Source of the DNA: Acidimicrobiia bacterium
Lineage (GTDB): Bacteria > Actinomycetota > Acidimicrobiia > Spongiisociales > JAHEDJ01
Length of the DNA stretch: 64,000 bases
Assembly: GCA_029210695.1 (NCBI GenBank)
Contig: JARGFH010000004.1
Location: 1-64,000, forward strand
Reading direction: 5' to 3'
In this document: positions 14,201 through 57,967 of the stretch, in pieces
Numbering within the stretch: position 1 is the first letter of the stretch
How the letters are laid out: each line of letters starts with the position of its first letter
Translations under genes and position numbers: made by a program
The notes under the pieces: model-generated
The model's database searches: none
Told to the model about the DNA's origin: nothing
The model's input: the letters and a program-made list of their open reading frames with translations, nothing else

Positions 14201-14681
14201 TGTGGTGCATGGCAAACGCCAGAAGATGCTCGTTCGGTGACACCCGAATCAGCAGGGGGATGAACGGGACCTCGTTCTCGAGATCAAAGGATCGAGACGT
14301 GTGATCGTCGGCGAGTGACCTGGCGGCCGCCAATGGGTCCTTCTCTCCGGACACATCGCGTATCTCCATGGCCGGCCGCCGATTGCCGGATAGTTGCACC
14401 GGCTCGGCTCCTTGCAGTGGGAACGTAGAGACCAGGACGGGATGTCGACAAACGACGGAATCGATAGCCCCGCTGAGTGCTGCGCTATCGAGGTTGCCCG
14501 ACAACCTCAGTAGGAGTGGTCGGTTGTTCGCCCCCTCCTCGAGGTGTGAGGTCAGCCACAAGCTCTGCTGCACATGCGTCAGTGGGGCCACGGACGAGTC
14601 GACGTGCCGCACCGGAGTCGACCGTCCGAGCCGTTCGGCGATCAGCGCATCGATTGCCGAACGGCGGGCGGCTTCAGACAT
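11277..14681 (-). CDS. Nonribosomal peptide synthetase, C-A-T (single elongation module)
   Basis: 1134 residues. The condensation domain (about 30-460) has an intact HHIVFDG active-site motif at 159-165. The adenylation domain (about 475-975) has YTSGSTGPPKG, YGPTEATVW and the catalytic Lys in TISGKVDK. The carrier (about 1005-1075) has FFNLGGHSLLAIK. The pocket code read by eye is roughly DANRAGSVWK; the leading Asp, which binds the amino group, indicates an amino-acid substrate, but I cannot name it. This module should couple the acyl group from the loading protein to its amino acid and pass the chain to the terminal synthetase. I set the start at Met 14681, which overlaps the stop of the loading gene by eight bases; the frame extends to 14747 only through the upstream gene's carrier region. 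Confidence 0.92.
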   Translation of the reverse strand: MSEAARRSAIDALIAERLGRSTPVRHVDSSVAPLTHVQQSLWLTSHLEEGANNRPLLLRLSGNLDSAALSGAIDSVVCRHPVLVSTFPLQGAEPVQLSGNRRPAMEIRDVSGEKDPLAAARSLADDHTSRSFDLENEVPFIPLLIRVSPNEHLLAFAMHHIVFDGWSEPLFVDELIAHYDAALEGSVPAGLPDLKIDYADHARWERATTTEDSFEKQLQYWRRQLADLPPDLKLPLDREMDPDSVANPVHVQIPPGVMSGLEDLARGHGATLFMVLLAALQVLIARHAGVDDVVVGVPTPGRPRSETENLIGCFINLVPIRTSLQDNPRFSEVIENTRRTTLEALDNSSVPYGQVFGAVRPWSTDRIPLHRVHFQMRDFHQAIRQSTHLEVEVVEPRVGATNHLTVRATRAPTGAAITFGYHPGRFRRSTIERWSEHYVRLLESVAGTADPTILDIELMGEAERRTTLEEFNPDEAAYLPSPPLASECLRSAATQWPDFVAMEEGTRHVTYAEFDRMVDSIAWSLMDRNLGPEDVVILSADRGIDAAAAMFGALRTGVAYVPIDSELTSEWMNTVIEQTKPALVLTTLEPWTRDDGLEVRGISQLLDDKARPFPGRPKPEDLAYVLYTSGSTGPPKGVMVEQGNVAWFLKQTADFEPLSPGDRIVWFHSLSFDAHMNSLHAAFAGGATVVVRDEASFYSIPRLVDWLTVHRISHLRVSAGFFHVLVEELAATGSKLPDTLRLVAFGGEQVRADIVNLWHALTGGSVQTVDSYGPTEATVWVTANDLTQPPPTEHEWISIGPPRAPSRVHVIDGLGNLAPIGIHGELYISGPLVARGYLNAPELTAERFSPDPFSRLAGTRMYRSGDIGRWLPNGTLEVIGRVDRQVKIRGFRVEPAEVETALRKVAGIDAAVVLATEAPNGDMELRGFVTFTDHQPIDLQAVRRSLGVPKFMVPTSLTAVSEIPMTISGKVDKNALLRGSLEPAATILAPRDRADIVAPTSTVPDRGEVARIWCEVLGADDVDATDDFFNLGGHSLLAIKVISRIKARLGVSVELTDLFEYPTFGAFSDMVLATARADIPSGSVVSPPIVRTSEQHADSMAGFDPDMDGFLTALEQMTDEEAEEMLRRLDAGGR

Positions 14682-16449
14682 CGGAGATGAGCAGTTCGTC
14701 GATGAGCTCGGCCTGGGCGGCGACCGTCGGTCGATCGAAGAACGCAACGATCGACGGATCTATCTGGAGACGTTCACGAACCCGAGTGAGCAGTCTGATG
14801 GCGAGCATCGAGTCCCCGCCGAGGTCTAGGAACCGGTCCTCGACCCCGATCGAATCCCGGTCGAGAACCTCCGACCAGATCTCGGCGACAACTTCCTCAG
14901 TGCGCGTCCTCGGCGCGACCCATTCGGCGCCGGCGCCGGCAACATCGTCTAGGTCGGAGAGCTCGAGCCGTTCGGCCATGCCGATGCGCTGTAGCTTGCC
15001 GGTTGGGCCCAGGGGTAGTGAGTCCATGAAGATGATGCGGCGCGGCACCTTCGCCGAGGACAGGCGCGCTTCGACCCACTTGCGCAACGAGAGCTCATCG
15101 ATGGCTGCGCCGGCTTCTAGGACGACTGCTGCGGCCGGCTGCTCTCCGAGACGGTGATCAGGGACGCCGAACGCCAGCGCCTGCCGCACAAGTTCGTGTT
15201 CGAGCAGGACCTCGTCGATTTCCCTCGGCGCGATGGTTTCGCCGGCTCGATTGATCATCTCTTTGGACCGACCGGTCAGGATCAGATATCCGTCCTCGTC
15301 GAATCGACCGAGATCGCCAGTCCGGAACCAGCCATCGATGAACGCATCCTCGGCTGGGGTCAGGTACCCCGCCGTCACATTGGGTCCCCGCACTACGACT
15401 TCGCCGATTTCGTGACGTCGCTGGTGTACCTCACCGGCCGTCAGAATGGACACCTCAGGACCTGCCGCAATACCAACCGATCCCGATTTGCGGCGCGCCG
15501 GCGGTAGCGGGTTGCATGACATCTGATGGGCGGCTTCGGTCATTCCGTATGCCTCAATTACCGGAGCGCCGAATGCCGACTCCAAGCCCTTCATCACTGC
15601 TGGCGGCAGCGATGCCGAGGACGAGCGAATGAAGCGAAGCGTCGGTAGTTCCATTTCTGGGGCAGATCGGACCCGTTCGACGATGGATTGATGGATCGTA
15701 GGGACGGCCGTGTACCAGGTTGGGGAGGTTGCGGTCATCCAGTCAAAGAACTGTGTGGCGATATACCCGGGTGTCGCGACAATCGATCCGCCCGAGTACA
15801 GAGGGGCAAGTAGGGCCGCTACGAGGCCGTGAATGTGAAACAGCGGCATCACATTCAATACCCGATCGTCGGGGGTGAGTTGCAGGGTCGTTGTCACATG
15901 AGCAGCGGACGCTGTCAGATTGGCGTGCGTGAGCGGAACCATCTTGGGTCGCGATGTCGTTCCCGAGGTGTGGAGAATGAGTGCAACATCGTCAGGGGCC
16001 GGCGATTGACTGGCCCCAACCGTGGTCGGAGGAGTGTCGATGATTGCCACGGAACCAGCCTTCAAACCAGGGCCGATCCGAAGAATTGGCACCCCGGCGT
16101 CTCTAGACGCTTCGACAAGATGCTCCGGAGCGTCTTCTGGGACGATCATCAGGCGGGGACGCAGATCTTCGAGGTAGAACGACAACTCCGCAGCCTTGAA
16201 CGCTGGATTGAGTGGGGCTGCAATGCCGGCGGCTGCCGACGCAAGGAATACAGTCACGGCTTCTGGCCCGTTGTTCACGAGTGACGCCACGACGTCGGTT
16301 CGGGAGACGCCAAGTCGGCTGACCGTGGAGGCGAGGTGGTCGACTGCGCGCTCAAGGTGATATCCAGAGGACGGATCCCGGGTTGGAGCCAGAAGAACGT
16401 CAGATGTCGACGAGCCCAATGCACGCACAATCTCGACAGTTGTTCTCAT
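14674..16449 (-). CDS. Loading acyl-AMP ligase fused to a carrier domain (A-T)
   Basis: 591 residues: an AMP-forming ligase (1-500) with LILHTSGTTSRPK (158-170), MPLFHIHGL (201-209), YGMTEAAHQM and the C-terminal Lys in PTGKLQR, then a carrier domain (about 510-591) with LDLGGDSMLAIR. The FHIHG motif resembles acyl-CoA synthetases and oxalate-CoA-ligase-like enzymes, not amino-acid adenylation domains. The Asp that binds the alpha-amino group is replaced by His, so a carboxylic acid starter (fatty, aryl or dicarboxylic acid) is inferred. It is the first gene of the peptide operon. Met 16449 is preceded by a GGGGCACGGGAAC purine stretch. The frame remains open to 17103, but that extension crosses into the divergent antiporter gene and looks non-coding. 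Confidence 0.88.
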   Translation of the reverse strand: MRTTVEIVRALGSSTSDVLLAPTRDPSSGYHLERAVDHLASTVSRLGVSRTDVVASLVNNGPEAVTVFLASAAAGIAAPLNPAFKAAELSFYLEDLRPRLMIVPEDAPEHLVEASRDAGVPILRIGPGLKAGSVAIIDTPPTTVGASQSPAPDDVALILHTSGTTSRPKMVPLTHANLTASAAHVTTTLQLTPDDRVLNVMPLFHIHGLVAALLAPLYSGGSIVATPGYIATQFFDWMTATSPTWYTAVPTIHQSIVERVRSAPEMELPTLRFIRSSSASLPPAVMKGLESAFGAPVIEAYGMTEAAHQMSCNPLPPARRKSGSVGIAAGPEVSILTAGEVHQRRHEIGEVVVRGPNVTAGYLTPAEDAFIDGWFRTGDLGRFDEDGYLILTGRSKEMINRAGETIAPREIDEVLLEHELVRQALAFGVPDHRLGEQPAAAVVLEAGAAIDELSLRKWVEARLSSAKVPRRIIFMDSLPLGPTGKLQRIGMAERLELSDLDDVAGAGAEWVAPRTRTEEVVAEIWSEVLDRDSIGVEDRFLDLGGDSMLAIRLLTRVRERLQIDPSIVAFFDRPTVAAQAELIDELLISDV

Positions 16450-33777: not shown

Positions 33778-35379
33778 CTACGGGTTCTGGAACTCTGCTT
33801 TCGGGCCCAGGTAGTACCACCAATTCAAGAACAGGCAGATCGCGTAGAAGGCGGCGAATGCGTACAGGGCGATCTCCGGTGTTGTCTTCGTGATCTGCTC
33901 GCCGAACTCCTGAGGCACCACGAATGCTCCGTAGGCGGCGACGGCCGAGGTCCATCCGAGCACCGGTCCGGCTTGCTCCTGGTCGAACACGACGGCGATC
34001 GTGCGGAAGGTGGACCCGTTTCCGACTCCGGTCGCAGCAAACAAGACGAGGAAGAGCAGGAAGAACGGCAGGAAATGATCCTCCGGAGTTGCAGATTGGT
34101 ATGCCTGCTTCATGAAGTAGGCGACTCCGAGCGCACTGGCGATCATCACCACCGACACCCACTGCGTCACTCGCGCTCCACCGACTTTGTCGGCGATCCA
34201 GCCGCCGACCGGACGGATGAACGCCCCGATGAACGGGCCCATCCACGCAAACGTCAACGCCGAGGGGCCTCCGGGGTTCACGAGGTCATGGGTCATCACC
34301 CCATCCACCAGGACATGCTGAAAGCCGAAGATGACCTTGATCGCCAGGGCAAAGCCGGCCGAGTATCCGATGAAACTGCCGAACGTCATTGTGTAAATGA
34401 CGCTCATGATCCAGGTGTGCTTGTTGCCGAAGATCTTGAACTGTCGCTCGAGGTTGGGCTTGATCTCACCACGCAGAAGCTTGAGGAGCAGCACCGTTCC
34501 CCAGATCACCAGGATGATGATCGGGTACTTGGCCCACGTCCATCCCAAGCCGGTCGGGCTCGGCAGGATGAAGAAGAGGCCGATGGCGGCCGGAATGAAG
34601 GCCAATCCGAGCATCCCGCTGATCTTGGCGAACGAATTGAGGGGGGAGCCGATGTTTGGAGAGACGTGCTCGGCGCGGATGTTGTCCATCTTGAACCATG
34701 CGAAAAACGCCAGCGGAATCAGGATGACGAGCCACACGAAACCGGCGTTGTGGATCCAGGTCTCGGTACCGGCTGCGATCTGACCGATCAGGGTTCCAGA
34801 AGACGTCTCGAGAATCATCGATCCGCCACCGAAGAGCCCGAAGGTCATGACCAGAGGGATCAGCACCTGCATGGTCGTGACACCTGCGTTGCCGAGGCCG
34901 GCGTTCAAGCCGAGTGAGAGGCCCTGCATCTTCTTCGGATAGAAGAAACTGATGTTGGACATAGACGAAGCGAAGTTCCCACCACCCAGGCCCGAAAGGA
35001 ATGCGAGCGCCTGGAAGATCCACAGTGGCGTGTCCTGCGAGAGAAGAGCAAGACCGGTACCGACAGCCGGGATCATCAACAACGCAGTTGTGAAGAAGAT
35101 CGTGTTCCGACCACCCGCAATCCGGATCAGGAAGCTGCTCGGAATCCTGAAACTCGCCCCTGCCAGACCGGCGATTGCCGACAATGTGAAGAGCTGCGCG
35201 TTGGTGAAAGGAAAACCGAGGTTGAGCATCTGAACGGTGATGACGCTCCAGTAGAGCCATACCGCGAACCCACACAAGAGGCTTGGGATTGAGATCCAGA
35301 GGTTCCGCTTGGCGATCTTCTTTCCGGTGGTTTCCCAGAACGTCTCGTCTTCGACGTCCCAGTCGTAGATGTCAGCCAT
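33778..35379 (-). CDS. narK: NarK-family nitrate/nitrite transporter (NarK2-like)
   Basis: 533 residues, major facilitator superfamily, 12 or more helices. The family signature appears as NAGLGNAGVTTMQ (nitrate signature) and SGLGGGNFASSM in the first half, and GNGSTFRTIAVVF in the second. Such proteins import nitrate or exchange it for nitrite. The soluble N-terminus MADIYDWDVEDETFWE is typical of long actinobacterial NarK proteins. Met 35379 follows GAGGAAAGCGC; the frame extends nine codons further, before that site. It is downstream of a second narK on the same strand, giving the tandem pair often found beside nar operons. Confidence 0.9.
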   Translation of the reverse strand: MADIYDWDVEDETFWETTGKKIAKRNLWISIPSLLCGFAVWLYWSVITVQMLNLGFPFTNAQLFTLSAIAGLAGASFRIPSSFLIRIAGGRNTIFFTTALLMIPAVGTGLALLSQDTPLWIFQALAFLSGLGGGNFASSMSNISFFYPKKMQGLSLGLNAGLGNAGVTTMQVLIPLVMTFGLFGGGSMILETSSGTLIGQIAAGTETWIHNAGFVWLVILIPLAFFAWFKMDNIRAEHVSPNIGSPLNSFAKISGMLGLAFIPAAIGLFFILPSPTGLGWTWAKYPIIILVIWGTVLLLKLLRGEIKPNLERQFKIFGNKHTWIMSVIYTMTFGSFIGYSAGFALAIKVIFGFQHVLVDGVMTHDLVNPGGPSALTFAWMGPFIGAFIRPVGGWIADKVGGARVTQWVSVVMIASALGVAYFMKQAYQSATPEDHFLPFFLLFLVLFAATGVGNGSTFRTIAVVFDQEQAGPVLGWTSAVAAYGAFVVPQEFGEQITKTTPEIALYAFAAFYAICLFLNWWYYLGPKAEFQNP

Positions 35380-35432
35380 GCGCTTTCCTCTTCCCGCGGG
35401 GCTCATCCCCGCACTGCCAAGTGATGTTTGAC

Positions 35433-37049
35433 CTATGCCTCCAGGCGCCCCTCTGCGTCGTGGACGAACTCCTCAACAAACGAATCCTTTGGTTCTTCGA
35501 GCATCAACAGGGTCACGACGAAGCTGAGCGCCGCTCCGGTCGCCAGGACGAAGAAGAACGTCTTGGAGTCAACCAGCGAGAAGAGAACCAGGTATATGAC
35601 CGCGCCGACGTTGCCGTAGGCCCCCGCCATTCCGGCGATTTGTCCCGTCATCCGCTTGTTGATCATCGGGATGATGGCGAACGTCGCGCCTTCCGCCCCC
35701 TGCACGAACACCGAGGCGAAGACGGTGATTGCCACGGAGGCGACCAACCACCAGAGCCCCCCGAACATCGGGACCACGGTCCTGAGGCCGTCGGCGTCTA
35801 CCCCGCTGCCCCATCGACCGATGAATGCCATCAGGAGGAACCCGACTGCGATCCCGACCATGTAGATCAGCATTGTTCGTTTGCGGTTGGCCATCCGGTC
35901 GGACAGGTACCCGCCCAGTGGCCGGGCTCCCAGGTTCACGAACGCGAAGGAGGCTGCCACCACCCCTGCGACGGTGGCCGTGACCAGCGGGCTGCCGCCA
36001 CTGTCTGTGAGAGGAACGAAGGTGTTCTCGAAGAACTTCGGCAGCATCGACACGACCGCCAGCTCTGCCCCGAAGTTGGCAAAATAAGTGCTGTTGAGAG
36101 CCGCGACACTGCCCCAGTGGTATTTCTCGTCGTCGGGAACCCCTGCTCGAAGGTACGGGAGATTGATCTGAAGGGTTTTGAAGACGTGGCCGACGTAGAC
36201 CGCCAGGAGAATGCCGTAGATGACAAACAGCGTTCCATCGGAGATGACCGCCTCACCGTCGATTTTCACGTTGCTGATTCGCCAGGCGAGGACCCCGAGG
36301 GCACCAACCAGCGGAAACGACCAGACGAGATACTGGGTCAGGTCACGGTACGACGTAACCATCATCGGCTCGGTCTTCTTGGCTTTGTGGAGTTGCTCGC
36401 CCGCCGGTACATCCCGGACCAGGAAGTAATACAGCACCCCGTAGGCACCCATGACGAAGCCGTTTACTCCGAGCGCCCAACGCCAGGCGTTGTCACCGAG
36501 TCCGAACCAGTTGTCCATGACTGTTATCGCAAACCAGGGGAGCGTCATAGCGGCGAACGCGGATCCGAAGTTTCCCCAACCTGCGTAGAACCCTTCTGCT
36601 CTACCGATGTACTTCGGAGGGAACCACTGAGCGACCATCTTGATCCCGATGACGAATCCGGCGCCGACCGAACTGAGCACGAGGCGGGCTATCAGCATCT
36701 GCATGAAGGAGTCGGCGAGAACGAAGGCCAGGGCGGGAAGCGCCATGAGGACCATCAACCCCGAGAAGACGACGCGTGCCCCGAAGCGGTCGATGAGGGC
36801 TCCGACCACGATGCGGGCCGGGATCGTCAGAGCGACGTTGGCGATCAACAGGATCTTCACGTGCTCGTCGGTCAACCAACCGACGGAATCCAACATGGTG
36901 GTCGCCATCGGAGCCATGTTGAACCAGACGTAAAAGGTCATGAAGAAGGCGATCCAGGTGTAGTGGAGTGTCCGGATTCGCTCCTGGCTGAAGTCGAGCA
37001 GTTTCGGCGGCGTATCAGCCGTGGACGGTGACCGATCGTCCTGACTCAT
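35433..37049 (-). CDS. narK: NarK-family nitrate transporter (NarK1-like)
   Basis: 538 residues, major facilitator superfamily. Motifs: HYTWIAFFMTFYVWFN at the first helix, GALIDRFGAR in loop 2-3 (the MFS motif), AGWGNFGSAFAAMTLP (nitrate signature) and LGARPLGGYLSDRMANRKRT in the second half. It is different enough from the neighbouring narK to be a separate type; one is likely a proton-linked importer and the other a nitrate/nitrite exchanger. AAGGAGAGG precedes the ATG. It is divergent from the Rrf2 regulator gene, so the 176-base gap should contain both promoters. Confidence 0.9.
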   Translation of the reverse strand: MSQDDRSPSTADTPPKLLDFSQERIRTLHYTWIAFFMTFYVWFNMAPMATTMLDSVGWLTDEHVKILLIANVALTIPARIVVGALIDRFGARVVFSGLMVLMALPALAFVLADSFMQMLIARLVLSSVGAGFVIGIKMVAQWFPPKYIGRAEGFYAGWGNFGSAFAAMTLPWFAITVMDNWFGLGDNAWRWALGVNGFVMGAYGVLYYFLVRDVPAGEQLHKAKKTEPMMVTSYRDLTQYLVWSFPLVGALGVLAWRISNVKIDGEAVISDGTLFVIYGILLAVYVGHVFKTLQINLPYLRAGVPDDEKYHWGSVAALNSTYFANFGAELAVVSMLPKFFENTFVPLTDSGGSPLVTATVAGVVAASFAFVNLGARPLGGYLSDRMANRKRTMLIYMVGIAVGFLLMAFIGRWGSGVDADGLRTVVPMFGGLWWLVASVAITVFASVFVQGAEGATFAIIPMINKRMTGQIAGMAGAYGNVGAVIYLVLFSLVDSKTFFFVLATGAALSFVVTLLMLEEPKDSFVEEFVHDAEGRLEA

Positions 37050-37181
37050 GTCCCTCTCCTTTGAACTGAGCTGTTGTCGGACCGGCTTCCCCGAACCCCC
37101 GGGTCGTTGGGGTCTGTTCCGGCACCAGTGTCGCGCCTTCGATGGACGCCCGCAGTTGTGTTTGTAGTCGGAATTCCACGT

Positions 37182-37218
37182 AACGTCAAGTGCAACTCTA
37201 AACGTTAAGTGCTATACT
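37182..37218 (+). promoter_or_regulatory. Promoter of the rrf2 gene with tandem operator-like repeats
   Basis: AACGTCAAGTGCAA (37182-37195) and AACGTTAAGTGCTA (37201-37214) are direct repeats matching at 12 of 14 positions with a 19-bp period. The second runs into a good -10 box, TATACT (37213-37218), 8 bases before the start codon. The -35 is weak (TGCAAC at about 37192). Repression by the Rrf2 protein itself, or nitrate/oxygen control of the region, is inferred. Confidence 0.55.
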
Positions 37219-37225
37219 CAGCGTT

Positions 37226-37732
37226 ATGCAGGCGTCTCTCGGAAGAAAAGGCGACTACTCGGTGCGAGCTGTGCTCGACATCGCCCGCCACAATGGCGAT
37301 CGCCGCAAGGCCCGGGAGATCGCCGCGGAGATGGATATACCGAACCGGTATCTCACTCAGATCCTTGCCAATCTCGTTCAGCATGGCCTGCTCGAGGCCG
37401 TTGCCGGCCCCACCGGCGGATACGTTCTCGCCCGGCAACCAGGTCAGGTCTCGCTCCTCGAGGTTGTCGAAGCCGCTGAGGGGCCGATCGCTCTCGACGT
37501 ATGCGTGCTGCAGGGAGGACCGTGCTCATGGGAGAACAACTGCCCGGTGCATGTCCCTTGGGCGCGCGCCCAGAACGCCATGGCCGAGCAACTGTCGACC
37601 ACGTCGTTCGCGGATCTGGTAAGTATTGATGAAGAACTTGCTGCCGGCACCCATCAGATTCCCGAGGACACACCACCTCACAAGATTCCAACTCCCCGGC
37701 TGCCGAGGAAGTCGGACAATAGGAAGAGATAG
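37226..37732 (+). CDS. Rrf2-family transcriptional regulator with three-Cys motif
   Basis: 168 residues. The winged-helix domain (1-80) reads MQASLGRKGDYSVRAVLDIA, then REIAAEMDIPNRYLTQIL and GPTGGYVLARQ, the standard Rrf2 pattern. The Cys motif follows at about residues 92-107: VCVLQGGPCSWENNCPVH, spacing C-x6-C-x5-C, suited to an iron-sulfur cluster that senses nitric oxide, oxygen or redox state, as in NsrR/IscR. The C-terminal tail is polar and Pro/Lys-rich. It begins the plus-strand unit with the diheme cytochrome and narGHJI and is divergent from narK, so it is the likely local regulator of nitrate respiration. Confidence 0.9.
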   Translation: MQASLGRKGDYSVRAVLDIARHNGDRRKAREIAAEMDIPNRYLTQILANLVQHGLLEAVAGPTGGYVLARQPGQVSLLEVVEAAEGPIALDVCVLQGGPCSWENNCPVHVPWARAQNAMAEQLSTTSFADLVSIDEELAAGTHQIPEDTPPHKIPTPRLPRKSDNRKR

Positions 37733-37810
37733 CAAGTCGGATCGATTGGATCTCGGAAGGCATCGGGGAGAGAAGTGCACTTCATAGATCGAGAGAGGGA
37801 AGGAAAGGGC

Positions 37811-38604
37811 ATGAGACGGTCACTGTGCCTGGCGCTGATCGTGGGAGGTACCGCAGTCGTCATGCTGTTTCCGCCCGCAGTCGGCGCACAGGAGGAAGTC
37901 GACGGCCGAGAGGTGTTCCTCGCCAGCTGCGCGGCCTGTCACCAGGGTACCGGTGTAGGCGTGAGTGGATCGTTCCCTCCTTTGGTCGGCAACGACCGTG
38001 TGCAGGACACCGAATACGTCAAGACCGTATTGGCAGAAGGCAAGTCCGGCCCACTTGATGTTCTCGGAGTCTCATACGACGGAGAGATGCCTTCCTTCCC
38101 GGATCTCTCGGGTCCCGAGATCGATGCGGTGATCGGCTACATCCAGGCCGGCGTGTTCATTCCTGCTGAGACCGGGGGACTCGAACCCGGTGACGCAGCC
38201 AGAGGGAAGGACCTCTTCACGGGAGGCGAACGTCTGGAGAACGGGGCTCCTGCGTGTGCTTCGTGCCACACCGCAGCCGGCTTCCAGGCTCTAAACGGAC
38301 CGGCCCTCGGGCCCGATCTCACTGATCTGTCCAACCGGTACGGCGGCGAAGAAGCTGTAGCAGCCGCATTGGTCAGCCCTCCGTCGGCAACCATGCAGCC
38401 GCTCTTTTCCGACAGCCCCATCGCCGACCAGGAGAGGTCAGACCTGGCCGCCTACTTCGCCTCCCTCTCGAATGTGCAGCCATCCGGGGGGCCCGACGTA
38501 CTGGTTTTGGGCGGCGCCCTCGGCGTTGTTGCTCTGTTCGCATTGATGTTGCTGGCGCCGCGCAGTCGGCGGCCGGGATTCGCACGGCAGTTGAGGAGCC
38601 AACG

Positions 38605-38608
<4 letters not shown>
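37811..38608 (+). CDS. Membrane-anchored diheme c-type cytochrome (NarC-like)
   Basis: 265 residues. A signal peptide ([20 protein letters not shown], cleaved near VGAQ) leads to two cytochrome c domains with heme motifs [10 protein letters not shown] and [10 protein letters not shown]. Possible distal Met ligands are in GEMPSFPDL and ATMQPLF. One C-terminal helix ([20 protein letters not shown]) anchors it, facing outward. Its stop overlaps narG by four bases (ATGA). A diheme cytochrome directly ahead of narG is also known from Thermus nar clusters, where NarC passes electrons or helps assemble the enzyme. Met 37811 follows GGAAGGAAAGGG; the frame opens 12 codons earlier. Confidence 0.87.
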
Positions 38609-42222
<3,614 letters not shown>

Positions 42223-42233
42223 GAGGAGGAACC

Positions 42234-43741
<1,508 letters not shown>

Positions 43742-43745
<4 letters not shown>

Positions 43746-44254
43746 TGTGGGACTTCGCGCCGCTGGCCGAGGGATTCGAATACCCCCGTCCGGGCCGCCT
43801 CGAAGAACTGCGGGCGGCGATGGCGAAGCTCGACTCGGCCGGGGTGCGTAGGCACTTCAGCCACTTCATCGAATCGGTCGGCGATCTCAGTCTCGCCGAG
43901 TGGGAAGAGCTGCACACACGAACGCTGGATCTCGGGCCCTTGTTCGTGCCGTACGTCGGCTGGGTGATTTGGGGGGACAACTATCACCGGGGGGAGTTCA
44001 TGGCGGAGCTCAAGGTGGCGCAGGAGGAGGCGGGCGTCGACGCCGGTGGCGAGTTGCCCGACCATCTTGCTCCCGTGCTCCGACTCCTGGCGGTTGCCGG
44101 CCCGGTGCCGGCGACCCTCCTCGAGGTGTTGCCCACCGCGGTGGCAAAGATGCGTGGTGAGTTGAAAGAGGCAGAACGCGACAACCCGTACCGGCACCTC
44201 CTGAAAGCAATTTCCGAGGTCGATGTCCCGTCCACGGTTGGAGGTGAGCAATGA
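43742..44254 (+). CDS. narJ: Nitrate reductase assembly chaperone
   Basis: 170 residues, all-helical NarJ/TorD family. It binds apo-NarG and controls cofactor insertion before membrane attachment, and is not part of the final enzyme. Visible features: the FEYPRPGRLEELRAA segment near the N-terminus, GPLFVPYVGWVIWGDNYHRG with the family's Pro/Tyr-Gly region, and DHLAPVLRLLAVAG, the central NarJ helix. It overlaps narH and narI by ATGA on each side, so translation is coupled. Confidence 0.9.
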
Positions 44255-44955
44255 GCGATGGCGTCCTGTTGTTTGTCGTGCTCCCGTATGTCGCGTTGGC
44301 GCTCGCGATTGTGGGCACGGTTTACCGGCTCAAATTCCGGAAGTTCTCTGTGTCTTCGCTGTCGACCCAGCTGCTGGAGAATCGTCAGCTCTTCTGGGGC
44401 TCGATCTCGTTTCATTGGGGGGTCCTGGCGATCCTCGTCGGTCACCTCCTGGCCCTTCTCGTCCCGGTCGGATTTCAGGCGTGGAATGGCGCCCCGGTGC
44501 GGTTGTATCTCCTCGAGATCACGGGATTCTCCCTCGGTCTGTGGGCGCTGGCGGGGCTGGTGGTGCTGATCCACCGGCGCCTTACCTCGCGGCGGGTGCG
44601 GGTGGTTACGACGCCGATGGATTTCGTAGTGCTCACGCTTCTACTCGCGCAGATCATCACCGGCCTATGGATCGCCGTCGGCTATCGCTGGGGTTCGTTC
44701 TGGGGTACCGGCGTGTTTGTGCCGTGGATCTGGTCGTTGTTGACCTTGCGGCCCCGACCGGAACTGGTGGTCAACGTCCCGCTCGTGCTGCAGACGCACG
44801 CCACCCTCTTCTGGTTGTTCCTGGTGGCGTTCCCGTTCTCAAGGTTGGTGCACATCATCACGGTGCCGTTCCAGTATCTAATCCGACCGTGGCAGTTGGT
44901 CACCTGGGTACGGCGCGACCAGAAGACCCCGACCAGGGTCGGAACCGGCGTCTGA
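44251..44955 (+). CDS. narI: Nitrate reductase gamma subunit (diheme cytochrome b)
   Basis: 234 residues with five hydrophobic helices. Candidate heme ligands are two His in SFHWGVLAILVGHL (helix 2) and two in LQTHATLFWLFLVA through RLVHIITVPF (last helix), the NarI pattern of four His for two b hemes. It oxidises quinol at the outer side and anchors NarGH on the cytoplasmic face. It closes the nar operon. A palindromic repeat lies 14 bases after its stop. Confidence 0.93.
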   Translation: MSDGVLLFVVLPYVALALAIVGTVYRLKFRKFSVSSLSTQLLENRQLFWGSISFHWGVLAILVGHLLALLVPVGFQAWNGAPVRLYLLEITGFSLGLWALAGLVVLIHRRLTSRRVRVVTTPMDFVVLTLLLAQIITGLWIAVGYRWGSFWGTGVFVPWIWSLLTLRPRPELVVNVPLVLQTHATLFWLFLVAFPFSRLVHIITVPFQYLIRPWQLVTWVRRDQKTPTRVGTGV

Positions 44956-50803: not shown

Positions 50804-52462
50804 ATGAGCAAACCGGCAATTGTCGCAGTCGATGACGATCCGCAAGTGCTTGCCTCGGTCGCCCGTGATCTGAGACGTCACTACGGTGAGGACTACCGGA
50901 TTGTGCGGGCGTCGTCCGGCGTGGACGCACTCCAGACGGTGCGTGAACTGCAGAGCCGCGGGGATGTCGTGGCCCTGTTCCTCGTGGACCAACGGATGCC
51001 GGAGATGAGCGGCACGGAGTTCCTCGCCGGGGCAATCGCCTTCTATCCAGATGCCGGAAAGGTGCTGCTCACCGCCTACGCGGACACCGAGGCTGCGATT
51101 GCCGCCATCAATGACGTGGGCCTTGATCACTATCTGATGAAGCCGTGGGATCCACCGGAGGAACATCTCTATCCGATACTCGACGACCTGCTTGATGACT
51201 GGCAGGCGGATAATCCGGCCCCCTACGACGGCATCCGGGTGATCGGTGCCCGCTGGTCACCGGACAGCTACGACGTCAAGGACTTCTTGTCACGGAATCA
51301 GGTGCCCTATCGGTTCATGGATATCGAAGAGGATCCGGACGCCCGGGCTGTGGTATCCGCCGGGGAGGCCGTAGCCCGGCTGCCGCTGGTCTTGTTCCCG
51401 GACGGGACGAGACTCGAGCAACCCGACCACCGCCTGCTTGCCGAACACGCCGGATTGCACACGTCGCCGTCCACCACTCATTACGACCTGGTGATCATCG
51501 GGGCCGGTCCGGCCGGTCTCGGTGCCGGGGTGTACGGGGCATCCGAAGGTCTCCACACCGCCCTGATCGAGCGACACGCAACGGGAGGTCAAGCAGGAAC
51601 CTCTTCCCGGATCGAGAATTATCTGGGTTTTCCTAAGGGGATCAGTGGGGCCGATCTGGCCCGTCGGGCCACGGCGCAAGCCGAGCGCCTCGGCGCGGAG
51701 ATCCTCACGGCCGTAGAGGCGACCTCGGTTCGGGTTGAAGACCCGACGAAGATCGTGACGCTCAACGATGGCACGGAACTCAGCTGCCGTGCCCTATTGA
51801 TCGCCACCGGTATGACCATTCGTACCCTCGACGTACCCGGTGCCGGGCCTCTGATTGGTGCCGGCATCTGGTACGGCGCCGCCGTGTCGGAAGCTGTTAC
51901 ATATCGCGGAGAGGACGTCTTCGTCATCGGTGGTGCCAACTCTGCCGGTCAGGCGGCGATGATGCTGTCCAAGTTCGCCGGGACCGTGACCATCATCGTC
52001 CGCGGCGACTCCCTGGAGGCCCGAATGTCGCAGTACCTGGTTGATCAGATTGCCGCCACTGAGAACATCCGGGTTCTATTGAGCAGCGAAGTAGCAGGGG
52101 TCGAAGGTAGCGGGCGCCTGCAGGGACTTACCACTCGCAACCGGGTCGATGGGAACGAACAGAACCATGAGGCTGCCGGCCTCTTCGTCTTCATCGGTGC
52201 CGTCCCCCACTCGGGGTTCGTGGAGGGAGTCGTCGAACGAGACGCCAAGGGGTTCATCCTGACGGGGACCGACCTCATGGTCGACGGTGTGAGACATCCA
52301 GCCTGGCCACTTGCCCGTGATCCATTTCTCCTGGAAACCAGCGTTCCCGGCATCTTCGCCGCAGGAGACGTCCGCGCCAATGTGATCCGCCGGGTCGCCT
52401 CAGCTGTCGGGCAGGGGGCTACCGGGGTGAGCTTCATTCACAAGTACCTCGAGACTGCATGA
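50804..52462 (+). CDS. Receiver domain fused to a thioredoxin-reductase-like flavoprotein, without redox Cys
   Basis: 552 residues: a receiver domain (1-125; Asp in LFLVDQRMPEMSG at residue 62, Lys in LMKPWD), a glutaredoxin-like segment (about 141-215) whose usual Cys pair is replaced (ARWSPDSYDVKD), and an FAD/NAD(P) reductase (225-552) with IIGAGPAGLGAG, GGQAGTSSRIENYLGF, VIGGANSAGQAAM and PGIFAAGDVR. Ordinary thioredoxin reductases have CxxC in the segment reading WYGAAVSEA here; I find only one Cys in the whole protein (in ELSCRALL). It therefore cannot run normal disulfide exchange. It probably oxidises NAD(P)H in a phosphorylation-controlled way. ATG overlap (ATGA) couples it to the kinase downstream. 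Confidence 0.88.
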   Translation: MSKPAIVAVDDDPQVLASVARDLRRHYGEDYRIVRASSGVDALQTVRELQSRGDVVALFLVDQRMPEMSGTEFLAGAIAFYPDAGKVLLTAYADTEAAIAAINDVGLDHYLMKPWDPPEEHLYPILDDLLDDWQADNPAPYDGIRVIGARWSPDSYDVKDFLSRNQVPYRFMDIEEDPDARAVVSAGEAVARLPLVLFPDGTRLEQPDHRLLAEHAGLHTSPSTTHYDLVIIGAGPAGLGAGVYGASEGLHTALIERHATGGQAGTSSRIENYLGFPKGISGADLARRATAQAERLGAEILTAVEATSVRVEDPTKIVTLNDGTELSCRALLIATGMTIRTLDVPGAGPLIGAGIWYGAAVSEAVTYRGEDVFVIGGANSAGQAAMMLSKFAGTVTIIVRGDSLEARMSQYLVDQIAATENIRVLLSSEVAGVEGSGRLQGLTTRNRVDGNEQNHEAAGLFVFIGAVPHSGFVEGVVERDAKGFILTGTDLMVDGVRHPAWPLARDPFLLETSVPGIFAAGDVRANVIRRVASAVGQGATGVSFIHKYLETA

Positions 52463-53850
52463 CCCTCGTCGAGCGCCTTCGGACCGTACCGCTCTTCTCA
52501 GACCTCCGGGACGAGGACCTCGAACGTCTTTGTGTAGGCACCGAGCAGCTCGAACTGCCGGCCGGCGTAGTCCTGTTCGCAGAGGGCGATCCGGGCGATC
52601 GGGCATTCGTGGTCCTCGACGGTCAGATCGAGATCGTGAAGGCAGCCGCTGGAGGCGAGGTGCTGCTGGCCGTCCAGTCGGATGGAGTGGTCGGTGAAAT
52701 GGCCCTGTTGGAAGACGCGCCGAGAAACGCGTCCGTTCGAGCCAGGACGGATACAACGCTGCTCGCCATTCCAAAAGCACAACTCGACCAGCTTCTCGAT
52801 TCCAGCCCATCGGCGGCACGGGCGTTCTTCGAGGTGATGCTCGACCGGTGGCGGGACACGCAATCGAGCCTGCAACAGTCGGAACGAATGGCACAGCTCG
52901 GTACCCTGACCGCCGGGCTCGCTCACGAACTGAACAACCCCGCCGCGGCAGTCAATCGGAGTGCCGGCCAGTTGATGGAGGCAATGGTGCGCTACGGGGA
53001 TGCGCGGTCTGCCACTGCTGCCAGCCTCGACCCGACCGAACTCGAATTCGTTGCGGCGACCCTCGAGGCGCTCCACGAGAGAAAGGGGGTTGGCTCGTCC
53101 CTCTCGGCGATGGATCGAACCGATCGCGAAGACGCCATCGAGGAGTGGCTGGTCGAGCACGGCGTCGATCGAAGCTGGGAGCTGGCGCCCGGCCTGACCG
53201 AGGCCGGCATCTCGGTGGAACAGCTGACGGCTCTGGCCGATCGGGTCGATGCCGGCCGGCTTGCCGCCGTGATCGGTCTGCTCGACGCGGCCCAGGATCA
53301 GCTCTCGATGCTGCATCAGATCGAAGAAGGGACCCGTCGGATGTCCGCCATCGTCAAGGCTCTGAAATCGTACGCTTATCTGGATCAAGCGCCGGTTCAG
53401 AACGTAGATGTGACGGCGGGCCTCGACGACACTCTCCTGTTGCTCGCCCACAAGGCCAAAGGCGTCGACGTGCAGCGTGACTACGCAGTGGAACTGCCTC
53501 ACATCGAGGCGCTCGGTGGCGAACTGAATCAGGTGTGGACCAACTTGATCGACAACGCGCTCTATGCGCTCGCAGGGCGAGAGGACGGGCGGCTCATCGT
53601 GCGGGCCCGGCCTTCCGAGTCGGGGGTGGTGGTCGAGATCGAAGACAACGGCCCGGGAATTCCCGCAGATATCCAGTCGCGCGTTTTTGACTCGTTCTTC
53701 ACAACCAAGCCGCCGGGGTCCGGGACGGGCCTGGGGCTCGACATCAGCCGCAACATCATCATCCACCACCACGGGGGAAACCTCACGGTTGAATCCGAGC
53801 CGGGCCGGACGGTCTTCAGGGTGGAGCTGCCGCTGACGCAGGGGAAATAG
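52459..53850 (+). CDS. Histidine kinase with N-terminal cyclic-nucleotide-binding domain
   Basis: 463 residues, no transmembrane helices, so cytosolic. A cNMP-binding domain (1-115) has FAEGDPGDRAFVVLDGQIEI and VGEMALLEDAPRNASV, the phosphate-binding cassette region. A linker leads to the H-box GLAHELNNPAAAVNRS (His156), a long helical insert (about 170-300), then N-box LNQVWTNLIDNALYAL, G1 EDNGPGIP and G2 GTGLGLDIS. It probably phosphorylates the receiver domain of the reductase fusion whose gene overlaps it. The H-box ELNNPAA is of the HisKA type used by soluble NtrB-like kinases. Confidence 0.9.
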   Translation: MTLVERLRTVPLFSDLRDEDLERLCVGTEQLELPAGVVLFAEGDPGDRAFVVLDGQIEIVKAAAGGEVLLAVQSDGVVGEMALLEDAPRNASVRARTDTTLLAIPKAQLDQLLDSSPSAARAFFEVMLDRWRDTQSSLQQSERMAQLGTLTAGLAHELNNPAAAVNRSAGQLMEAMVRYGDARSATAASLDPTELEFVAATLEALHERKGVGSSLSAMDRTDREDAIEEWLVEHGVDRSWELAPGLTEAGISVEQLTALADRVDAGRLAAVIGLLDAAQDQLSMLHQIEEGTRRMSAIVKALKSYAYLDQAPVQNVDVTAGLDDTLLLLAHKAKGVDVQRDYAVELPHIEALGGELNQVWTNLIDNALYALAGREDGRLIVRARPSESGVVVEIEDNGPGIPADIQSRVFDSFFTTKPPGSGTGLGLDISRNIIIHHHGGNLTVESEPGRTVFRVELPLTQGK

Positions 53851-53903: not shown

Positions 53904-54731
53904 CTACAACTCGAGTTGCATGCCTTCATAGGCGGCGGTGGTGTCTGCGAATTCCCCTCGTGCCCGCTCGACGAGAGCATCGATCTCGTCGTCGTTTCTG
54001 GCCGGATCGTGACTGACGAGAATGAGTCGCTTGACCCCGGCGTCTTGGGCCGCCTGGACCGCCTGCGCCCAGGTGCTGTGGCCCCAGCCGACGTAGTGGT
54101 CCTCGTACTCGGCCGGGCTGTACTGGGCGTCGTGGATGAGCGTATCGGCGCCGGTCGCCAGTCGCCGGAGAGTCTCGTCCGCCTCTTGGTCTCCGCGTTC
54201 ACAATCGGTCGCCACCACCACCGAGTGCTTGGGACCGTCGATGCGGTAGGCCGTGACACCCTGCGGATGGTGCAGAGGGGCAGCGGTGATCTTGAGGTCG
54301 CCGACCTCGAGGACCGTGTCTGAGATCGTCACATAGGTCTTGTGAGCGGCGGTGTCCTGGATTGAGACGGGGAACCATGGCGGTCGTAGAGCTCCCTCGA
54401 TGGCGTCCTTGCTGCTCATCGTGTCCCATTGGTGCCCGTAGAAGGTGAAGGTGTTGGACTCGTCGTAGAGCGGGCGGAAGAACAGCAGTCCCTGGATGTG
54501 GTCCCAGTGATAGTGCGTGAGGAAGACGTGATACTCGGTTGCGCCACCAGTTGCACCGTTCCGGTGGAGGCGGGTGATTCCGGTTCCACCATCGATCAAC
54601 ACAACCGAGCGATCGGCCGACGTGACCTCGATACAGAGTGTGTGCCCACCGTGCCGGTTCGTGTTGCCACCAGAAACGGGCATTGAGCCGCGCACACCTC
54701 TGAAGGTGAGGATTGGTCGGGGATCGGTCAC
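53904..54731 (-). CDS. Metallo-beta-lactamase-fold hydrolase
   Basis: 275 residues, soluble. The N-terminus FRGVRGSMPVSGGNTNRHGG is typical of a phosphodiesterase-like MBL subgroup, and the zinc motif is THYHWDHIQG (His-x-His-x-Asp-His). Later residues include LHHPQGVTAYRI, VVATDCERGD and LILVSHDPARNDDE. Proteins of this type hydrolyse phosphodiesters or lactones; a cyclic-nucleotide substrate would fit the cNMP-binding neighbours on both sides, but that is inference. The start is GTG 54731 with AAGGGCGG upstream. It is convergent with the kinase gene. Confidence 0.85.
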   Translation of the reverse strand: MTDPRPILTFRGVRGSMPVSGGNTNRHGGHTLCIEVTSADRSVVLIDGGTGITRLHRNGATGGATEYHVFLTHYHWDHIQGLLFFRPLYDESNTFTFYGHQWDTMSSKDAIEGALRPPWFPVSIQDTAAHKTYVTISDTVLEVGDLKITAAPLHHPQGVTAYRIDGPKHSVVVATDCERGDQEADETLRRLATGADTLIHDAQYSPAEYEDHYVGWGHSTWAQAVQAAQDAGVKRLILVSHDPARNDDEIDALVERARGEFADTTAAYEGMQLEL

Positions 54732-54814: not shown

Positions 54815-56647
54815 TCAGTGACTCAGAATCGACTCTGTCAAACGTTCGCTTGCCTCATTCTGTTCCAGGACCTGCAACGCGTGCCGGTAGCCGACCTCTA
54901 TGAGTTGCTCATAGGACGCGAACGCCATTAGCGAAAAGTCGGATACGGGAGGGCGGAATACCAGATCAGCCCTCTGCTCAAAAACCTTCGATGAGATGAC
55001 ACTGCCGATCTCCGACGTGCGGAGAAGCGTCTGTACCATTCCCGGAACAGCCGACTTCTTTCGCCATGGTGCGAAGTGGTGACGCAAGGCTCTCCACCCG
55101 GAGAGTGCCCCATCCCGCGGCAGGTCGTGAGCCGCGATGTCGGCCGGGCTTCGCAGATTGACTGCCAGTATCGGGCCCGGTTCGCCGAGGGTTTCCGCGA
55201 CATCGACGGGGAGGTTGTTCATCACCGCCCCGTCGACCAGTACGTCACCGTCTTGTGAGCGCATCGGCGGAAATACTCCAGGGATAGAGATACTGGCGCG
55301 CAGCGCCTCCCACAGAGCTCCGGTTTGGTGGACCTGGACTTCCCCGCGGGTCAAGTTGCTGGAAACGCAGAAGAAACGGATCCATAGATCTTCGATGTTG
55401 ACTTCACCGAATGTGCCTCTCAGTTGATGCCTCACTTTGGCGCCCCTGGCAAGGGCAACGAGGGGCGGAGTGAGGTCGACGGGGGATCCCAGATCGACGA
55501 GATGCTTGACCATCTGTTCCCTGGTCTCTTCCCAGCCGCGGCCCATCGCCTTGTGGGCGGCTGTAATCGAACCGAAGCTGGCACCTCCGACGAAGTCGAT
55601 GGGTACGCCGCTCTCTTCCAACGCTCGCAGAACACCTATCTGTGCAAGGCCGCGCGCTCCGCCGCCGCTGAGAACGAGATTGACGGCCGTACCCGTCAGA
55701 ATCCGGGCAAGCCTCTGGAATCCCGCATCCGTTCCAGGGCGAAGGTTGTAGTGCCGGATCCCGGGCCGATGCTCTATCCATGATGAGACTGGCGCCGGAA
55801 TCGGGCCGTCGGCACCATGCACCATCACCAGGTCGACGCGTGTGTGTGCCCGGGTCGCCATCTCGTGGAGGAGGCCCTCTTCCACGGAGTTCGGCCAAGG
55901 ATCTCCGGAGGGCTCCCCGATGAGCAACACTCGATCGGCTTGTCCGATGCATCGCCGGGTCCACTCAGGCGACGCGTGGTCTGTAATCAAGAGTACCTTG
56001 TCGTGTGCGGCTCCAAGCTCTTCAACCATTCGGCCAAGATCCATGGATTGCTGTCCATTCGCGACCAGCTCGAATCGATTGGAGTCCACCACCGCTACCG
56101 TTCCGTGTTTGGACAGAGCGTCCTCCAGCAGGCCGGCCGCTTGCATGATGTCCCGGGTCTGGCCGGCTGCGACTAGCGCGACTATTCGTACCTCCCCTGA
56201 TCGGCCGCCTGAGTGAATCGACCGGCCGAGTCTTGCAACAATCATCCGTGCGATCGCCGCGAGGGCGGCCGGTTCGCGAGAGACGAGATCGTGGAAAACC
56301 TCTCTGGAAAGTTCGATCAGGTTGGAGTCTCTGACCGCCCGGACCGTGGCCGACCTCGGGTGATCTGACAGAAGCGCCATTTCGCCGACGGTTTCGCCCG
56401 CCGATATTTCACCGACGACGGTCGACGACCCGTCGCCGGCGAGAACGTCGGCGCGGAGCCGGCCGTTCACAACTACAAACATAGAGTCTCCGGCTTCCCC
56501 CTCTCGCATGAGAATCTCACCGCCCACCAGGCGGCGGTCGGACGAGCAGTCGACCAACTCCTTGAGCGTTGCCTCTGAGAGCGCGCTGAACAACGGGATT
56601 GTTGAAATCAACTTCAGATTCGCTTCGCGACTCCGGCGTTGGCCCAT
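54815..56647 (-). CDS. Patatin-like phospholipase with cyclic-nucleotide-binding domain
   Basis: 610 residues. A cNMP-binding domain (about 10-125) has MREGEAGDSMFVVVNGRLRA and VGEMALLSDHPRSATVRA. A middle region (about 150-300) reads like a nucleotide-binding-fold segment. The patatin domain (about 320-510) has oxyanion loop LVLSGGGARGLAQIGVL, nucleophile Ser in FVGGASFGSITA and catalytic Asp in DVLVDGAVMNNLP. It resembles neuropathy-target-esterase-like lysophospholipases that also carry cNMP domains. The likely substrate is membrane lysophospholipid. Met 56647 follows GAGGGGAGTATCCG; the frame opens at 56740. Confidence 0.9.
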   Translation of the reverse strand: MGQRRSREANLKLISTIPLFSALSEATLKELVDCSSDRRLVGGEILMREGEAGDSMFVVVNGRLRADVLAGDGSSTVVGEISAGETVGEMALLSDHPRSATVRAVRDSNLIELSREVFHDLVSREPAALAAIARMIVARLGRSIHSGGRSGEVRIVALVAAGQTRDIMQAAGLLEDALSKHGTVAVVDSNRFELVANGQQSMDLGRMVEELGAAHDKVLLITDHASPEWTRRCIGQADRVLLIGEPSGDPWPNSVEEGLLHEMATRAHTRVDLVMVHGADGPIPAPVSSWIEHRPGIRHYNLRPGTDAGFQRLARILTGTAVNLVLSGGGARGLAQIGVLRALEESGVPIDFVGGASFGSITAAHKAMGRGWEETREQMVKHLVDLGSPVDLTPPLVALARGAKVRHQLRGTFGEVNIEDLWIRFFCVSSNLTRGEVQVHQTGALWEALRASISIPGVFPPMRSQDGDVLVDGAVMNNLPVDVAETLGEPGPILAVNLRSPADIAAHDLPRDGALSGWRALRHHFAPWRKKSAVPGMVQTLLRTSEIGSVISSKVFEQRADLVFRPPVSDFSLMAFASYEQLIEVGYRHALQVLEQNEASERLTESILSH

Positions 56648-56788
56648 CGGATACTCCCCTCGGGGGGGCACGCTACCGGGTTTCCACCGGTTCTGTGTAC
56701 AGACAGGCAGAGACCCTGCTGAACGGCATGTCCTGGGCATTCTGCGTAATCAACATGTAGGCTGCTGGCCGCTGAGGAGGGAGACTCG

Positions 56789-57967
56789 ATGAGTATGACG
56801 AAGCTTCGTCCGCCGCGCCTTCGTACCGTGGAGGGCGAAGCAGAGGAACGCAAGGTCACCTGGACCGAGCTGTTCTACGATCTCGTGTTCGTTGTTGCCG
56901 TGGCGGGACTCGGCCACCGGCTTCTGGAAGACTCGACGTGGTCGGGGTTCTTGTCGTTCACCGGTCTGTTCATTCCGTTGTGGTGGGCGTGGGCGGGTTT
57001 CACGTTTTATGCCGATCGGTACGACACCGATGATCTCGGCCAGCGACTGCTGGCGGTTGCGCAGATGGTGGCCGTGGCGCTGATGGCGGCGAGTATCTCG
57101 GGTGGAGAGACGGAGTCGTTGACCGCCTACGCACTTGCCTTCGTAACCGCCCGGGTGATTCTCATCATCATGTATCTTCGGGCCCGCCGCCACGTTCCGG
57201 AGACCCGGGAACTGGTGTCTGGTTACACGAGGGGGATGGCTCTGGCCGCGCTGCTCTGGCTGGTGTCGGTCGTTGTGCCGGAACCGGCCAGATTCGTGCT
57301 GTGGACCGTCGGGTTGCTGGTGGACTTCGCCACTCCGTACCGCATGCGCCGGGTTCAGGCGACCGTCCCGCTGGATGTCGCCCACCTGCCCGAACGGTTC
57401 GGTCTGTTCACGATTCTTGTGCTCGGCGAATCCGTTGCCGCGGTCGTGGCCGGCCTTGATCACGAGGGATGGACGACGGGTGCAACGGCGCTGTCGGTTC
57501 TGGCCGTGCTGATCACCTCAGCCCTGTGGTGGGTCTACTTCGACAACCTCGACGGAACCGTTGTCCGCCGGCGGACCGACCAGAAGAAGGCATGGAAGCC
57601 GACGGTGTGGATCTACAGCCACCTCTTGCTGGTGATCGCTCTGATGATGACGGCCATCGGTCTCGAGCATGCCATCACCGCGGTGGACCATGACTCGCTG
57701 CAGACCGGCGAGCGCTGGCTGCTCGTCGGCGGCCTGGCCGCCGCCTTCGCCGTCCTCGGGTTGATTCAGTTGGCCACCGACAGCAACGGTGGCGGCATTC
57801 GGCAGTCCTGGATCACCCGACTGCGGTTCGCCGGGGCGCCGCTGGTCGTGCTGGTCGGAGTGGCGTTCGCAGGGTCGGGGGTCATGACCCTCGTCATCGC
57901 GCTGGCACTGGTCTGTGCGATCCAGGTGGCGGGCGACGTCTTGATCACCGATCAGGTCCCGGTGTGA
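56789..57967 (+). CDS. ltrA: LtrA-family low-temperature-requirement membrane protein
   Basis: 392 residues with about 11 hydrophobic segments. The N-terminal signature VTWTELFYDLVFVVAVAGLGH is diagnostic for LtrA, as are ERFGLFTILVLGESV and the WWVYFD region mid-protein. Function is not established; the original Listeria gene was needed for growth at low temperature. It is divergent from the patatin gene with a 141-base gap containing GAGGAGGGAG before its ATG. Confidence 0.9.
   Translation: MSMTKLRPPRLRTVEGEAEERKVTWTELFYDLVFVVAVAGLGHRLLEDSTWSGFLSFTGLFIPLWWAWAGFTFYADRYDTDDLGQRLLAVAQMVAVALMAASISGGETESLTAYALAFVTARVILIIMYLRARRHVPETRELVSGYTRGMALAALLWLVSVVVPEPARFVLWTVGLLVDFATPYRMRRVQATVPLDVAHLPERFGLFTILVLGESVAAVVAGLDHEGWTTGATALSVLAVLITSALWWVYFDNLDGTVVRRRTDQKKAWKPTVWIYSHLLLVIALMMTAIGLEHAITAVDHDSLQTGERWLLVGGLAAAFAVLGLIQLATDSNGGGIRQSWITRLRFAGAPLVVLVGVAFAGSGVMTLVIALALVCAIQVAGDVLITDQVPV

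Follow-up and report, generated by a model that had tools for sequence, protein, structure and literature searches.

A receiver-bearing, dithiol-free relative of thioredoxin reductase and its partner histidine kinase: a candidate two-component system with a flavoenzyme output

The window analysed here, which comprises the first 64,000 nucleotides (forward strand) of contig JARGFH010000004.1 from an Acidimicrobiia bacterium (assembly GCA_029210695.1), carries adjacent genes for a flavoprotein related to thioredoxin reductase (TrxR) and for a histidine kinase. The flavoprotein joins a receiver (REC) domain to a glutaredoxin-like and a TrxR-like domain, and the redox-active cysteine pairs of both of the latter are absent, as they are throughout a large clade of relatives. 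Judged by their co-occurrence in genomes, kinase and flavoprotein are a dedicated pair, and on balance we favour the view that they constitute a dedicated two-component system whose enzymatic output would be flavin electron transfer without dithiol exchange. The kinase start codon overlaps the flavoprotein stop codon (ATGA), an arrangement which suggests that translation of the two genes is coupled. The parts of the pair, in window positions, are as follows.

50804..52462, plus strand: flavoprotein gene, 552 amino acids with a single Cys (C328); receiver 1-120, linker helix, Cys-free glutaredoxin-like domain ~143-220, CxxC-free TrxR-like FAD/NAD(P) domain 226-552
50831..51142, plus strand: receiver domain, residues 10-113, with intact D10, D11, D62 (the phospho-acceptor), T90 and K113
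51257..51268, plus strand: S152-P153-D154-S155, the site of glutaredoxin CPDC, by alignment with L161 and relatives
51869..51895, plus strand: W356-YGAAVSEA-364, the site of the TrxR CATCDG motif, by alignment with Cys-keeping relatives
52391..52393, plus strand: R530, invariant in the Cys-less clade and Gln in Cys-keeping relatives
52459..53850, plus strand: histidine kinase gene, 463 amino acids with a single Cys (C25); cyclic-nucleotide (cNMP)-binding domain 32-115, dimerization and histidine phosphotransfer (DHp) region with H156 and an extra helical segment 192-262, HATPase_c 356-460

Pfam places Response_reg at residues 6-119 of the flavoprotein and Pyr_redox_2 at 227-538. The domain between them scores 21.7 bits with the glutaredoxin profile PF00462 (cut-off 22.9); the corresponding domain of L161, which has the same layout but has kept its cysteines, reaches 41.6 bits, and this clear match supports homology of the window protein's middle domain to glutaredoxin. 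In the AlphaFold model (mean pLDDT 90.1, pTM 0.79) its elements follow the order beta-alpha-beta-alpha-beta-beta-alpha, as in the thioredoxin fold. At the first lost site WCPDC of the L161 glutaredoxin is replaced by WSPDS, and at the second CATCDG of TrxR by GAAVSEA; neither a CPxC glutaredoxin active site (SPDS stands there instead) nor the redox-active CxxC of the NADPH domain is present in the window protein. With the NCBIfam TrxB equivalog TIGR01292 it scores 239.3 bits, under the cut-off of 343.45. The initial annotation, made from the letters alone, had described a flavoprotein with a receiver and a TrxR-type FAD/NAD domain and one Cys in 552 residues, the loss of both the CxxC and the glutaredoxin Cys pair, and a coupled kinase with a cyclic-nucleotide-binding domain. 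The reading frame and Pfam agree with the first of these, alignment locates the two losses, and the kinase is borne out by Pfam (cNMP_binding) and by the ATGA overlap.

The same annotation had proposed a family survey of the cysteine loss, which we ran. The genome collection held 298 relatives, of which 80 were kept for analysis; their alignments span practically the full protein, with identities of 55-96%, and their sources include Acidimicrobiia, Chloroflexota, Cyanobacteria, Bacteroidota, Spirochaetota, Acidobacteriota, Gemmatimonadota and Proteobacteria. Cys counts in the window protein and these 80 relatives range from 0 to 4 each. A 162-sequence alignment was made by adding 81 further sequences (plasmid and phage-collection matches, relatives found in 346 genomes of the window's phylum, and the source genome's own TrxR). 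No CxxC occurs anywhere in 149/162 of these sequences, the window protein included, and 13/162 keep the TrxR CxxC. The remaining family places in the phylum gave 51 rows: 50 are without CxxC in the part read, one of them being a fragment that stops short of the TrxR site, and the 51st, G052, is a Cys-keeping fusion. The loss is therefore clade-wide (149/149, and 50/51 further rows, without CxxC), and isolated decay of the window protein is rejected.

Both pairs are intact, e.g. WCPDC and CATC, in ten Cys-keeping rows that are glutaredoxin-TrxR fusions: G052 and nine of the 13, these nine being 401 to 448 residues long. For a maximum-likelihood tree, 101 TrxR domains were taken from the 162-sequence alignment, active-site columns included. 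A branch with support 100/100 sets apart all 13 Cys-keeping rows, and support of 97/96 unites the 54 rows whose receiver is intact (D62, T90, K113). The simplest reading of these sequences is that both dithiols were lost once, anciently, in a glutaredoxin-TrxR fusion, and that varied regulatory N-termini were recruited later. The N-termini found on the Cys-less module are REC, degenerate REC and cNMP domains, and other members have no extra domain.

Some individual rows deserve mention. The same-phylum glutaredoxin-TrxR fusions with both CxxC (L161, L162, L164-L170, L219) are an outgroup to the Cys-less clade. In L144-L157, L180, L181 and similar rows the Cys-less module is joined to a degenerate receiver, and there is no kinase in the vicinity. 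One Cys-less member, L114 (MT838110.1), is from an unannotated entry that bears the label of an unverified human-gut phage contig; its neighbours in the tree are proteins from genomes of the phylum to which the window belongs, so the DNA may be of bacterial origin.

The dinucleotide motif residues G233, G235, G376, S380 and D522 are each found in 149/149 Cys-less sequences. So are R530 (Gln in 13/13 Cys-keeping rows), Q383 (Glu in 13/13) and Y411 (which differs in the Cys-keeping rows), and R530 and Q383 recur in all readable Cys-less rows of the 51 further ones (48 and 49 rows, respectively). A W...RDP insert has no counterpart in the 13 Cys-keeping rows; its W501 is present in 137/149 Cys-less sequences, R505 in 139/149 and P507 in 144/149. 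The receiver residues D10, D11, D62, T90 and K113 are invariant in 115/115 sequences (the D62/T90/K113 set), and mean column identity is 68% across 68 family sequences. Since the FAD and NAD(P) motifs are kept and invariant residues of its own have been gained, the Cys-less clade looks re-purposed rather than decayed.

Position 530 we take to match the Gln that in E. coli TrxR is close to the flavin, whose potential a positive charge at this place is expected to change. The model of the flavoprotein was compared by VIA-align over residues 223-552 only, the REC and glutaredoxin-like parts lying outside. It superposes on the flavin-reducing (FR) form of Lactococcus lactis TrxR, 5mh4, with Z 36.3 and 1.6 A over 302 residues, vs 7.2 A for the oxidising (FO) form of the same enzyme, 5mjk. 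An enzyme without an internal disulfide would have no need for the FO form, and the superposition is a hint, suggestive only, that the flavoprotein may prefer an FR-like state.

Pairing with the kinase was sampled in the 346 genomes of the window's phylum, with a threshold of E<=1e-40 for the kinase core; co-occurrence counts are raw, uncorrected for genome size or relatedness. The intact-REC protein is in 45/346 genomes, the kinase core in 47/346 and both in 44, which places the kinase core in 44/45 genomes with the intact-REC protein vs 3/301 others. At 45/48 intact-REC places a kinase match is found no more than 1.5 kb away and on the same strand, 43 of these being downstream, and in six genomes two or three kinases stand in a row. 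At none of the 70 other family places in this sample is there a kinase nearby. Among 18 further intact-REC rows all five receiver residues are found in 15 (of the other three, two are fragments and one carries Glu at position 10); among 33 further rows of the degenerate-receiver kind, 0/33 have D10, D11, D62, T90 and K113 all readable and intact. The phosphosite and the kinase are lost together. In a cyanobacterial sample the full-length protein is in 6/146 genomes, and these six alone reach E<=1e-60 with a kinase match, a cut-off set after viewing the list; in one of the six the kinases are on other contigs. For the 80 related loci, a kinase match was found in 70.

In the kinase itself, Pfam finds cNMP_binding (74.9 bits) and HATPase_c, and HisKA stays below cut-off with its match limited to the second helix. 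The H-box His, H156, and HATPase_c are each present in 35/35 aligned kinases. The kinase model (pTM 0.63, its long helices giving poor overall superpositions) has a long helix 117-189 that carries H156, then the helical segment 192-262, and another long helix at 265-307; on this model the DHp would be a helical hairpin with an elaborated tip, barely recognised by the HisKA profile. Two of the 35 kinases also match a CoA-binding domain, most likely L021 and L044, the longest ones, at ~610-620 residues.

The window kinase retains the signature residues of a cNMP pocket (G79, E80, P88, R89), of which E80 and R89 are presumably the phosphate-binding Glu and Arg. R89 is found in 31/35 aligned kinases and is lost in three cyanobacterial kinases and L074. 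The source genome has seven cNMP domains and nine class III cyclase matches, none of the latter within the window. Class III cyclase matches occur in 18/80 related loci (21 in 861 kb vs 1 in 218 kb of control loci). In 20/80 related loci the kinase match is without the N-terminal part, the sensor classes being taken from tblastn coverage, which misplaces at least L050, one of the 20, with a cNMP domain by Pfam. Family kinases that were scanned begin with REC plus PAS, PAS, REC, or no recognised domain. The sensor is interchangeable, with cNMP the common form of input, one of several, and not a property of the family. The proposal of the initial annotation that the output of the flavoenzyme is tuned by cNMP gains partial support for the window pair from the dedicated kinase and the kept pocket signature, which make such control probable, but does not carry over to the family, where other N-termini are found.

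From this evidence we infer a scheme of ligand binding, phosphotransfer, NAD(P)H turnover and electron delivery. A cyclic nucleotide (cAMP or cGMP) would bind the N-terminal pocket of the kinase and set its activity; the kinase would phosphorylate D62 of the receiver, and the receiver would control the attached flavoenzyme. This enzyme would have arisen from a glutaredoxin-TrxR fusion by a single loss of both dithiols and a re-tuning of the flavin site. Hydride would pass from NAD(P)H onto FAD, and the flavin electrons would go straight to an acceptor with no disulfide of the enzyme's own in between. No neighbour gene other than the kinase is general among the related loci, and since there is no universal candidate partner gene besides it, the acceptor is most likely diffusible or ubiquitous (a quinone, O2 or a common protein).

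It is also conceivable, although we consider it distinctly improbable, that disulfide chemistry persists, the flavin reducing the Cys pair of a docked partner (thioredoxin, a zf-UBP protein or a CMD protein) that supplies the dithiol. The strongest candidate for a partner is zf-UBP: a gene for this zinc-finger protein is nearby in 14/91 loci, and within 4 kb at 19/108 Cys-less places in the phylum vs 0/12 Cys-keeping places. By genome it is in 59/76 carriers of the Cys-less family vs 23/270 others, a co-occurrence uncontrolled for genome size. On plasmid p1 of Streptomyces angustmyceticus (L112), a stress operon, dnaK-grpE-dnaJ-cbpM-clpB-trxA-zf-UBP, is followed by a cNMP-fused Cys-less reductase, bringing trxA, zf-UBP and a family member together. 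However, the conserved Cys of zf-UBP look like zinc ligands, and the gene is missing from 4/5 carrier genomes reached via other-phyla loci, on which ground zf-UBP was rejected as a universal acceptor. A CMD (AhpD-like) gene lies near the pair in 6/91 loci (L013, L026, L027, L031, L049, L068), but the products in L026 and L013 have one Cys of the usual pair only, and with its presence in 6/91 loci only the CMD type was rejected as a general partner. The failure of zf-UBP weighs against the two-component scheme as well, as do several other points: 10/80 related loci have no kinase match, some through contig ends; the link of cyclases to cNMP-type kinases is borderline (15/50 loci vs 3/30, p=0.053); kept FAD/NAD sites are no proof of turnover; and the AlphaFold run behind the FR-like hint was made without cofactors.

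The main rival, which we think rather unlikely, is that the flavoprotein is an NAD(P)H redox sensor and not a turnover enzyme, its flavin or nucleotide state altering its shape, to be read by a partner or fed back to the kinase via the receiver. That no universal partner or acceptor gene was found and that both nucleotide sites are kept would fit such a role, as would the repeated fusion of the Cys-less module to signalling domains (REC, degenerate REC, cNMP), which is expected for a sensor; an FR-like conformation, if the model is right, would place NAD(P)H against the flavin. Yet an intact N-terminal REC with a dedicated kinase is the usual arrangement of an output, not an input, and the clade-specific charged R530 near the expected flavin site suggests changed reactivity. 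To a functionless, decayed thioredoxin reductase we give hardly any credence: only the absent Cys themselves speak for it, whereas all members of the clade, in many phyla, share the loss, the rest of the sequence is strictly conserved, and the kinase partner is conserved too.

With the two-component scheme as the preferred reading, the system quite possibly, though we put this forward tentatively, represents a widespread and unrecognised signalling output, in which a histidine kinase sets the outflow of electrons from the NAD(P)H pool via a dithiol-free, re-tuned flavoenzyme, and in which cNMP control was reached twice (by a fused cNMP domain, and by a cNMP-sensing kinase acting on REC). If so, proteins now named thioredoxin-disulfide reductases in these families would be misnamed, the name predicting the wrong chemistry, and many bacteria of several phyla would wire second-messenger and two-component signals to redox metabolism and not to transcription. 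Given the consistent absence of both Cys pairs, the conserved R530 and the dedicated kinase, two purified proteins would be enough to test the idea.

Thioredoxin reductases are the closest solved structures by sequence (best E 2e-47), FNRs being far more distant (best E 8e-20), and no solved structure's sequence covers the full domain combination. Residues 226-552 resemble low-Mr thioredoxin reductase (TrxB) in fold, domain order and FAD/NAD(P) motifs, at ~32% identity to structures; the window protein differs from TrxB in having no CxxC, in falling under the NCBIfam cut-off and in its REC and glutaredoxin-like domains, R530, Q383 and W...RDP insert. The CxxC-keeping glutaredoxin-TrxR fusions (L161, L162, L164-L170, G052), a sister group, share the glutaredoxin-TrxR order and ~38-42% identity over the shared part, but keep CPDC (or a close CxxC) and CATC and have no REC and no zf-UBP nearby. 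TrxR-like FNRs are described, in passages of PMC10294844, as having the TrxR fold without CxxC and passing electrons from NAD(P)H to FAD and onward, with a C-terminal residue of the other subunit stacked on the flavin. The window protein likewise has a TrxR fold without CxxC; FNR membership was rejected since it has no C-terminal FAD-stacking extension. Its sequence is closer to TrxR than to FNR. Its C-terminus ends where that of TrxR ends, residue 550 aligning with 308 of 311 in 4zn0 and 552 with 307 in 5mh4.

Proteins that NCBI names 'cyclic nucleotide-binding domain-containing thioredoxin-disulfide reductase' (e.g. in Paraburkholderia and Streptomyces) have the same Cys-less glutaredoxin-TrxR module, but with the cNMP domain fused directly in place of REC plus kinase. 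A further NCBI name presumably in use is 'fused response regulator/thioredoxin-disulfide reductase'. The term thioredoxin-disulfide reductase implies a disulfide activity that the Cys-less module, to judge from its residues, would not support, and the flavoprotein family is common, conserved and probably mis-named. Among response regulators with enzymatic output, an archaeal two-component census names the REC and thioredoxin reductase combination a 'Mycobacterium-like combination' (PMC5847659); the passages of it consulted call the protein a thioredoxin reductase and contain no mention of missing Cys, a glutaredoxin-like domain or a kinase. A full-text literature search, judged by titles and abstract openings and covering few subscription journals, gave no study of the flavoprotein or the kinase and no mention of the Cys loss. 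The initial annotation called the device unusual; REC-TrxR fusions as such were already in print.

Of the genes around the pair, the one next to the kinase is the following.

53904..54731, minus strand: metallo-beta-lactamase (MBL)-fold hydrolase gene, neighbour of the gene pair, also in five related loci

Both this gene and a metallophosphatase neighbour seen in 13/91 loci were considered as phosphodiesterases and rejected, the NCBIfam matches being far under cut-offs. Two genes downstream of the kinase, on the opposite strand, is a patatin-like phospholipase (54815-56740), which carries a cNMP domain of its own besides an NTE-type P-loop domain. An LtrA (low temperature requirement A) gene follows at 56789-57967 and recurs in five related loci, plasmids of Nostoc and Deinococcus among them. 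Nitrate-respiration genes occupy 33778-44955, ending ~6 kb upstream of the flavoprotein-kinase pair; they include a major facilitator superfamily (MFS) transporter (35433-37049), a cytochrome c (37775-38608), a NarG-like molybdopterin subunit (38605-42222) and NarI (44251-44955). Further upstream, a large gene for a non-ribosomal peptide synthetase (4048-11280, Pfam-checked) has a second long reading frame beside it (11277-14747).

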